Shown here in pieces: positions 5,375 through 6,521 of a stretch of DNA of 35,061 nucleotides. Position numbers and translations under genes: made by a program. Origin of the DNA: Candidatus Gottesmanbacteria bacterium RIFCSPHIGHO2_01_FULL_40_15 (lineage in GTDB: Bacteria > Patescibacteriota > Microgenomatia > 2-02-FULL-39-11); the NCBI GenBank assembly GCA_001779115.1, contig MFJF01000010.1, positions 1 to 35,061 of the forward strand. Direction: 5' to 3'. Below the pieces are notes generated by a model, which did not search any database, had not been told where the DNA came from, and saw only the letters and a program-made list of their open reading frames with translations. The number at the start of each line of letters is the position of its first letter. The first letter of the stretch is position 1.

Positions 5375-5660
5375 TTAAAGTCCAGGCTATAACAGCATGG
5401 TTATGTTACAGGATAGATCATTTAACCTGCCAAAACAATTTTATACTATTTCCAAAATATCCTCTTTTTGACATACAGTTTGGAGACGATACTTATCCAC
5501 ATTATTTTACACATTTAATACAGACCGTTTTACAGCTCCATAACTACTATTAATTATTATAGGTTATTACTATTTTGGGATTACTATAACTATAGGCTCT
5601 TGACAAAGACTTTTCCACATGCTAGCTTTGATATAGAAATAAGTTTTATCAAAAAACAAA
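5375..5660. other. AT-rich intergenic stretch with DnaA-box-like sites
   Basis: No gene is seen. The stretch is AT-rich with stuttering TTATTACTATT/ATTACTATAACTATAGG runs. A perfect TTATCCACA lies at 5493-5501 and a one-mismatch TTTTCCACA at 5611-5619. Two boxes are too few to claim an origin. The right part holds the promoter for the small downstream unit, and leftward it must contain the promoter of the GT87 gene. Confidence 0.4.
5600..5628 (+). promoter_or_regulatory. extended -10 promoter for the 48-codon ORF unit
   Basis: A perfect TTGACA at 5600-5605 is followed after 17 bp by TAGCTT at 5623-5628, preceded by TGC (extended -10). Predicted start about 5635, about 26 nt before the ATG at 5661. 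A near-match DnaA box (TTTTCCACA) sits in the spacer. Confidence 0.6.
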
Positions 5661-5807
5661 ATGAAAAAAATAATTGAGAAAATATTCGGTAAAAGAAGAA
5701 AGACAAGCCCAAGAGATTTTGAATGGGAAAGGTTTCAGGAATCAGCGAAGAAACAATTCAAGATACTGAAAGATAAGGGATTAAGCATTCCGGTAATGAC
5801 AATCTGA
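5661..5807 (+). CDS. 48-aa basic small protein, unknown
   Basis: This ORF of 48 codons begins MKKIIEKIFGKRRKTSPRDF and ends LSIPVMTI. It is rich in Lys/Arg and amphipathic at the N-terminus, with no recognisable domain. A strong promoter lies just upstream, and a tail with four copies of GCGGGCTACGACT and a hairpin follows. No clear Shine-Dalgarno is present, only A-rich sequence. It could be a real small nucleic-acid-binding or membrane-associated peptide, or an incidental ORF in a regulatory RNA. The clean promoter spacing favours expression of the region; translation is uncertain. Confidence 0.45.
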   Translation: MKKIIEKIFGKRRKTSPRDFEWERFQESAKKQFKILKDKGLSIPVMTI

Positions 5808-5834
5808 GAAAAATAATATAAGTTAACAATTCAA

Positions 5835-6015
5835 GCGGGCTACGACTACGATTAAAAGATATATAAAAGCTGCGGGCTACGACTCTAAGAGAGGAGGAGA
5901 CCGTAAAAGCAAAATAAAATAAAAAATTCTTAAGCAGGCAAAAAAAAGCGGGCTACGACTACAAAAACTGATACAAAAATAAAGAGCATCACTAACGCTA
6001 GCGGGCTACGACTAC
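5835..6015 (+). repeat. four copies of GCGGGCTACGACT(AC) in an A-rich tail
   Basis: Copies start at 5835, 5872, 5948 and 6001. All share GCGGGCTACGACT; copies 1, 3 and 4 share 15 nt, and copies 1 and 4 extend to GCGGGCTACGACTACGATTA. Starts are 37, 76 and 53 bp apart, and linkers are A-rich and differ from one another. Three copies lie in sequence expected to be single-stranded; the fourth is the loop of a 13-bp hairpin. The motif is GC-rich in an AT-rich region, so identity by chance is very unlikely. It is not a CRISPR: spacing is irregular and no cas genes are near. A set of RNA binding or antisense sites is the simplest reading. Confidence 0.75.
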
Positions 6016-6033
6016 GATTAGTAATGCTCTTTT
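5983..6033 (+). terminator. hairpin ending the repeat-bearing transcript
   Basis: AGAGCATCACTAA (5983-5995) pairs with TTAGTAATGCTCT (6018-6030) with one mismatch. The loop carries the fourth GCGGGCTACGACTAC copy. It is followed by only a short T tract (TTTT), so termination may be partial. Confidence 0.5.
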
Positions 6034-6302
6034 ATTATGGAGTTGATCAAATGTGATGAGCAGGTTTGACCAACACCTGTTTAAAAGCTATACCATTGAC
6101 AGTAAATCAATGTCAAGAAAAAATATTAATCTTAAAATCTTCAGTTTATCCTTTCATATCAATATCAAACAAACACTATCTTTATAGTGTCAAAACTAAT
6201 CAGATAACACTAGTCCTAGTGGTTAACACCTGATTAACTCCCTAAAAATACAGCTAATTAAAATCTCAAAAAACAAAGAAGAGTAAAAAAGAGCTCCAGA
6301 AC
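6034..6302. other. gene-free stretch with several small inverted repeats
   Basis: No ORF of substance is seen. Hairpin-forming sequences include TTGACA…TGTCAA (about 6097-6117), ACACTAT-CTTT-ATAGTGT (about 6173-6190) and CACTAG-TC-CTAGTG (about 6207-6220). They may be regulatory sites or part of an untranslated RNA, and none matches a motif I can name. Confidence 0.3.
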
Positions 6303-6331
6303 TTGACAAAGAGACTATACGATGATAGAAT
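6303..6331 (+). promoter_or_regulatory. strong promoter of a short RNA
   Basis: TTGACA (6303-6308), 17-bp spacer, TAGAAT (6326-6331): a near-consensus sigma-70 promoter. The predicted start is about 6338, and a rho-independent terminator follows 60-105 nt later, with no gene of normal size between. Confidence 0.75.
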
Positions 6332-6337
6332 GGCCCG

Positions 6338-6443
6338 CTAGAATAAGCTATGCCCGATTCAGCCCTTTTGAGTTCACAATTTTGGGTATTTCAATTTAAC
6401 TTCGGTTAATTCCGGGTAGTGCCGGTTGGGGCCGAAGTTTTTT
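6338..6443 (+). ncRNA. candidate ~106-nt small RNA (or leader encoding a 19-aa peptide)
   Basis: The unit is bounded by a near-consensus promoter and an intrinsic terminator and contains no standard gene. Landmarks of SRP RNA, RNase P RNA or tmRNA are not seen. It does contain a 19-codon ORF (6350-6409, MPDSALLSSQFWVFQFNFG) rich in aromatic residues and ending inside the terminator stem. That is reminiscent of an attenuator leader peptide, but there is no downstream gene on this strand and no clear ribosome site. An independent sRNA is therefore the more likely reading. Confidence 0.5.
6398..6443 (+). terminator. rho-independent terminator
   Basis: AACTTCGG (6398-6405) pairs perfectly with CCGAAGTT (6432-6439), with an inner CCGG/CCGG pairing, then a T tract at 6438-6443. 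It acts on the plus strand only, since no T run exists on the other side. Confidence 0.75.
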
Positions 6444-6464: not shown

Positions 6465-6511
6465 GTAGATAAGATGTAGGGCAGGCGTCTTATCTCCCCG
6501 CTAGAGGAGAT
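6465..6511 (-). terminator. hairpins beyond the sugar-transferase gene
   Basis: Between the sRNA unit and the gene ending at 6522 are two overlapping inverted repeats: AGATAAGATG with CGTCTTATCT (about 6467-6493), and TATCTCC with GGAGATA (about 6490-6511). They could stop transcription from the right, but no proper T tract is present, so the call is weak. Confidence 0.3.
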
Positions 6512-6521
6512 AGAAACGCAA

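Follow-up and report, generated by a model that had tools for sequence, protein, structure and literature searches.

The window, that is, the whole stretch of 35,061 nucleotides that was analysed, contains a 48-codon ORF followed by a tail with repeated copies of one sequence, a bidirectional terminator hairpin and a predicted antisense RNA on the opposite strand. Some of the relevant elements lay outside the region described in an earlier note on this DNA: they are on the minus strand or reach downstream as far as about position 6515. Those relatives that carry a name are Candidatus Gottesmanbacteria, which places the window in the class Microgenomatia. The radA gene was located 2.4 kb upstream of the locus in the window and directly upstream in the relative G076. 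The relatives are related genomes, and the counts of loci and genomes given below are not independent samples. Promoters were called by consensus match, and all transcripts are predicted ones. The features were as follows, each with its main evidence.

5493 to 5501, plus strand: DnaA box TTATCCACA, 107 bp upstream of the -35 element (conservation).
5600 to 5628, plus strand: promoter of RNA-A, with TTGACA at 5600-5605, a 17-nt spacer and the extended -10 element TGCTAGCTT (TAGCTT at 5623-5628) (sequence).
5661 to 5807, plus strand: 48-codon ORF MKKIIEKIFGKRRKTSPRDFEWERFQESAKKQFKILKDKGLSIPVMTI (conservation).
5834 to 5854, plus strand: tail copy 1 of the hairpin-loop sequence, identical to copy 4 at 21 of 21 positions; computed duplex with the RNA-B loop, -37.7 kcal/mol.
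5872 to 5884, plus strand: tail copy 2, the 13-nt core; computed duplex with the RNA-B loop, -27.6 kcal/mol.
5947 to 5962, plus strand: tail copy 3, a 16-nt match; computed duplex with the RNA-B loop, -33.7 kcal/mol.
5978 to 6033, both strands: bidirectional terminator hairpin, whose plus-strand loop is copy 4 (6000-6020) and whose minus-strand loop is the complement (model R1 and covariation).
5975 to 6080, minus strand: RNA-B, a predicted convergent antisense RNA of about 105 nt, with a 5' hairpin (loop CCUGCUC) followed by the terminator hairpin (loop CGUAGUCGUAGCCCGC) (fold z -7.66).
6087 to 6116, minus strand: promoter of RNA-B, with TTGACA at 6116-6111, 18 nt and TATAGC at 6092-6087 (conservation).
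6303 to 6331, plus strand: promoter of RNA-C, a predicted third RNA, with TTGACA, 17 nt and TAGAAT (sequence).
6467 to 6495, plus strand: stem-loop with the loop GGGCAGG, complementary to the RNA-B 5' loop CCUGCUC (conservation).

The promoter and small ORF that the earlier note had claimed were real. TTGACA was found 5' of the ORF in 90 of 104 loci, and the ORF was conserved in 12 of the 15 genomes of the order; a profile search detected it in 62 of 280 genomes of the class. We infer an mRNA, RNA-A, running from about 5635 to 6036 on the plus strand and ending in the bidirectional terminator. Boxes of the form CTAT(A/G)(A/G)G were present just 5' of the -35 element in about 80 of 104 loci (5590-5599 in the window) and may be sites for a regulator. 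A second box of this form was frequent some tens of bases further upstream.

The motif GCGGGCTACGACT occurred four times, always exactly and on the plus strand, starting at 5835, 5872, 5948 and 6001, and none of 100 shuffles reached four matches at two mismatches. The match extended to 21 nt for copies 1 and 4 and to 16 nt for copy 3, while copy 2 was limited to the 13-nt core, so the earlier statement that the motifs are identical, with copies 1, 3 and 4 longer than copy 2, was borne out. Its placing of copy 4 in the loop of the closing hairpin was also correct, but its description of copies 1 to 3 as unpaired held only in part, with mean unpaired probabilities in the fold of 0.57, 0.39 and 0.63, respectively. 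The motif was not found elsewhere in the 1.33 Mb genome on either strand, even with one mismatch allowed; it is therefore confined to the locus and is not a genome-wide random repeat, and the complement that the earlier note had proposed to look for elsewhere in the genome was not found either. Repetition at the same locus was confirmed in other genera of the same family, with three copies each in G011 and G008 and two in G013. In G001, two copies of the variant AGCGGGTTACGAC were present. The copies could have arisen by local duplication.

The complement of the motif lies at the locus itself, on the other strand, as the terminator loop CGUAGUCGUAGCCCGC of RNA-B. The promoters at 5600 (plus) and 6116 (minus) converge on the closing hairpin, which is flanked by U-runs on both sides and was the most conserved part of the locus in the locus alignment. 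TTGACA of the RNA-B promoter was at its place in 82 of 104 loci, compared to 6 of 104 in a shifted control stretch. RNA-B folded far above shuffled sequence (z -7.66), whereas the whole RNA-A fold was scarcely above chance (z -1.57), and both RNA-B hairpins recurred in relatives. Since RNA-B from the same locus carries the complement, no trans target elsewhere is needed. Thus, the proposal of a sponge or multi-site antisense RNA stood as to accessible, identical RNA-pairing sites, which are complementary to a predicted small RNA on another transcript (computed duplexes of -27.6 to -37.7 kcal/mol), and fell short as to a target in trans.

The strand on which the hairpin acts was examined by covariation. 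In the minus orientation, 98.3% of stem cells were paired and six pairs covaried; double changes in the stem occupied 23 cells on this strand, compared to 6.8 in shuffles. One stem pair was an invariant U-G on the minus strand; its plus-strand reading would be A-C. The covariance model R1, which was built from the minus strand, scored 75.4 bits on the minus strand of the window and 39.8 bits on the plus strand. On this sequence evidence, the hairpin structure is selected on the minus strand. This bears on the view that RNA-A itself is what the repeats act on, or that they bind a protein, as in CsrB-like titration or an mRNA stability element, with RNA-B incidental. Because the loop and the copies have the same sequence on the plus strand, a protein or an RNA that reads both on RNA-A is conceivable, and the linkers are A-rich. 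We consider this view very unlikely, given selection on the minus strand and loops that vary by family over a constant stem. CsrB-type RNAs have repeated GGA in loops and CsrA as partner; the motif has no GGA and CsrA was not found in the genome. CsrA titration was therefore rejected, and the protein titration suggested by the earlier note is disfavoured.

To compare loops with possible sites, each loop was matched to the 450 nt that precede its own hairpin and to the corresponding stretch in all loci of other families. The own locus was the best match for 26 of 104 hairpin loops, with about 1 expected (f8, 11 loops; f1, 7; f21, 3; f3, 2; f13, 2; f29, 1). In a version based on duplex energy, the own locus was best in 18% and within the top 5% in 28%. 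The loop sequence differed among families while the stem was constant, and loop and copy varied together: AGCGGGTTACGAC in G001, CGGGCTAAGGGCTATGATTAG over the start codon in G006 and TTAGCAACATTGGGTTTGGG in the early codons in G145. The window clade, f3 and G050 (f29) had the site in the 3' tail; in f3, the copy GCAGACGGAC lies in a separate tail hairpin. Elsewhere the site was on the start codon (G006), in the early codons (most f8 genomes) or in the leader (f21). Some f6 genomes (G152 and G234) had shorter, weaker tail matches. Target sites thus shift within the mRNA while loop and site stay matched. As judged from these matches, the common factor is a site on the small-ORF mRNA that fits the antisense loop; because relatives have this site on the start codon, in the early codons or in the leader, the theme appears to be antisense control and not sponging.

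About three quarters of the loci had no significant copy at their own locus, especially in f6, f7, f9, f17 and f37, and the f1 genomes G004, G005 and G012 were also among them. RNA-B may therefore have other partners in these loci. Such families, with a conserved RNA-B whose loop has no copy at its own locus, also count in favour of a different role for RNA-A, whose tail would be a decoy titrating RNA-B, with mRNAs in trans as the true targets of RNA-B and the small ORF as secondary. This would be the sponge of the earlier note, with RNA-B as the sponged RNA. A single transcript with as many as four near-perfect sites would fit a decoy, and there are C-rich loops, CCCUUA among them, that look like anti-Shine-Dalgarno seeds. 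However, the genome contained no other site for the 13-mer within one mismatch, the ORF itself is conserved, and a copy lies at the ORF start or in the leader in f8, f21 and G006. We regard the decoy role as rather unlikely. An Hfq-dependent trans-acting small RNA was rejected, as Hfq was not found in the genome.

The locus is probably a cis-antisense RNA module that controls the small basic protein. The 3' loop of RNA-B would kiss the complementary terminator loop of RNA-A and the loop copies elsewhere in RNA-A. In relatives with a copy on the start codon, in the early codons or in the leader, pairing of RNA-B would prevent translation. The window has its copies exclusively in the 3' tail, where translation initiation cannot be blocked directly. 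The three additional tail copies of the window clade would each offer another landing site for RNA-B. They might nucleate a duplex and lead to decay of the mRNA by RNase III, which is present in the genome, or, equally possible, they might absorb RNA-B and let the mRNA escape above a threshold.

The small protein is basic and without a hydrophobic stretch. Its C-terminus, KGLSIPV(F/V/M)T(L/I), was nearly constant, and the AlphaFold2 model consisted of a short helix, a long helix and an extended C-terminal tail (mean pLDDT 76.7). It matched no Pfam or NCBIfam family, and a fold search with the predicted structure gave no significant match. A match in PHROGs (E 0.003) was to an entry without function, and the best PDB profile matches, to PPR and uS15 helices, covered just 16-17 residues. 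The C-terminal KGLSxPxVTL looked like the terminus of a pentatricopeptide (PPR) repeat, a likeness over 17 residues (E 1.8e-4) that may be due to chance. The key residue of the clamp-binding motif of Hda is a glutamine; SIPV was considered as a motif of this kind and dropped, as an invariant glycine stands in its place. The only paralogue found in the family was a diverged second copy in G005 (L038 / L073, G005:C15:14689-14829), which ends in GITIPTIFLL, adjoins a membrane-protein gene and lies upstream of it; no hairpin was visible in the sequence read there. The protein represents a new family with the conserved C-terminus KGLSIPVxTL.

These properties weigh on whether the locus is a strict type I toxin-antitoxin system with the small protein as toxin and RNA-B as antitoxin. 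Its geometry is that of par of pAD1 (PMC7472228). However, the protein had no match to a toxin family, and a basic protein lacking a hydrophobic stretch, with a predicted short and long helix and a C-terminal tail, does not suit a toxin of this type. The locus is usually single, chromosomal and class-wide, with radA nearby, unlike mobile addiction modules. We judge this interpretation to be improbable.

The 5' hairpin of RNA-B has a loop of the type CUGYYY or UUGCCCA on a stem that is unrelated between families. Of 105 loci, 71 had the CUGYYY pattern in the 5' part of RNA-B, compared to 4-16 for control patterns. Downstream, a GGGCAGG stem-loop with a stem of at least 7 bp was present in 64 of 105 loci; permuted cores gave a median of 0 and at most 11, and no such stem-loop was found upstream in the same loci. 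The window had no other hairpin of this kind, and G021 had no other strong one. The stem-loop and the RNA-B loop pattern co-occurred (Fisher p 2.7e-6, phylogeny ignored), and every variant of the RNA-B 5' loop can pair with GGGCAGG through G-C, A-U or G-U pairs. A U-run follows the stem-loop in several genomes. Together with the promoter ahead of the stem-loop, this points to a third RNA (RNA-C) downstream; promoters at the same place were found in G005, G006, G011, G012 and G021. The 5' loop of RNA-B would pair with the GGGCAGG stem-loop of this third RNA, although the two RNA-B loops and GGGCAGG may instead pair otherwise or bind a protein.

Several further observations concern this region. 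In f9 and f5 loci (G146, G274 and G018), TGGACAG, the complement of the RNA-B 5' loop CUGUCCA, was in the terminator loop, as if the loop roles were exchanged. RNA-C (6338-6443 of the window, plus strand) would begin near GGCCCGCUAG, which is complementary to CUAGCGGGC, a part of the motif in hairpin and tail, and in the window clade it has its own terminator-like hairpin ahead of the GGGCAGG stem-loop. A palindrome, CACTAGTCCTAGTG, was located at 6210-6225, between the RNA-B and RNA-C promoters, and a similar sequence to CACTAGTCCTAGTG was found in the corresponding stretch of G013 (L007).

A strict DnaA box was found upstream in 62 of 104 loci, compared to 0 of 104 downstream as a control. 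It was on the mRNA strand in 61 loci and on the other in 1, and its distance to the -35 element had a median of 107 bp (quartiles 106-108). An mRNA promoter with a putative DnaA site at a fixed distance suggests a link of RNA-A to replication or the cell cycle. A conserved box at fixed spacing could also mean that it belongs, together with the repeats, to a replication origin or another DNA element. However, the repeats follow the RNA loops, and G021, a closed genome, has its GC-skew minimum (about 470 kb) at dnaA (479 kb), 94 kb from the locus. The locus was thus rejected as a replication origin, and we consider a role as a DNA element of this kind extremely unlikely. A wider reading of the cis-antisense module, possible and put forward only tentatively, is a class-defining circuit of three RNAs, in which a DnaA-responsive small-protein mRNA would be controlled by an antisense RNA whose loops pair with the mRNA and with the GGGCAGG RNA, coupling the protein to replication. 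As part of this tentative circuit, the mRNA-pairing loop would evolve fast and match its own locus, and the GGGCAGG-pairing loop would stay constant.

Of 280 Microgenomatia genomes, 191 had the R1 hairpin, most often at a single locus; second matches, where examined, were the same hairpin on the other strand. In a sample of the phylum, it was found in 18 genomes of the class, and the approximately 260 genomes outside the class gave two marginal matches (E 2e-4 and 5e-4), both plain short hairpins. No Rfam 15 family matched the RNA at its gathering score, as the earlier note's failure to name a family had anticipated; in the window only rRNA and tRNA matched. The best match below threshold was RefA9 (26.4 versus 49 bits), and identity with ctRNA_pT181 was rejected as a chance match (24.9 bits versus a cut-off of 56). 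A plasmid collection contained no relative of the hairpin. Viral contigs matched one hairpin arm by chance, in a different context and without a match to the model, so a viral and, more generally, a mobile origin was rejected. A literature search returned no account of such an RNA in Microgenomatia. Regulatory RNA is little described in this class, and this hairpin RNA, without an Rfam entry, occurs in about two thirds of the sampled genomes. In these bacteria, which cannot be cultivated so far, the locus offers a directly testable case of RNA-RNA pairing and a promoter that may be under DnaA control.

Among known systems, RNA sponges and multi-site target RNAs carry several accessible sites complementary to one small RNA. 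RNA-A shares this property, but the RNA that it could sponge is encoded opposite to it at the same locus, and the carrier of the sites is a conserved mRNA. CopA, RNA I and ctRNA are compact antisense RNAs with kissing loops that control plasmid replication. The present locus is similar in its compact, predicted kissing-loop antisense RNA, its small-protein mRNA target and the DnaA box nearby; unlike them, it is chromosomal, has no Rep protein and lies 94 kb from oriC in G021.

The known system that comes nearest is the par locus of plasmid pAD1 (Fst / RNA I - RNA II, type I toxin-antitoxin), which has convergent promoters, a common bidirectional terminator, kissing of terminator loops and a repeated pairing site (PMC7472228). 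Convergent promoters and a shared bidirectional intrinsic terminator were likewise found here in the sequence. In par the repeats are at the translation start; the window clade has several copies, all in the 3' tail, and copies at the start codon were seen only in the relative G006, with early-codon copies in f8. Fst/Ldr toxins are hydrophobic membrane peptides with PXXXG, whereas the protein here is basic, with a helical, soluble model, and its locus is usually the one chromosomal locus of its kind in a genome across the class. Also unlike par, the repeated sequence is the terminator loop itself, and the additional RNA-B 5' hairpin, the GGGCAGG RNA and the DnaA box are present. As in par, a very small protein mRNA and an antisense RNA, here predicted transcripts, converge on a common bidirectional terminator, the terminator loops would start pairing, the repeat would give a second pairing region and, in several relatives, this region lies over the ORF start.
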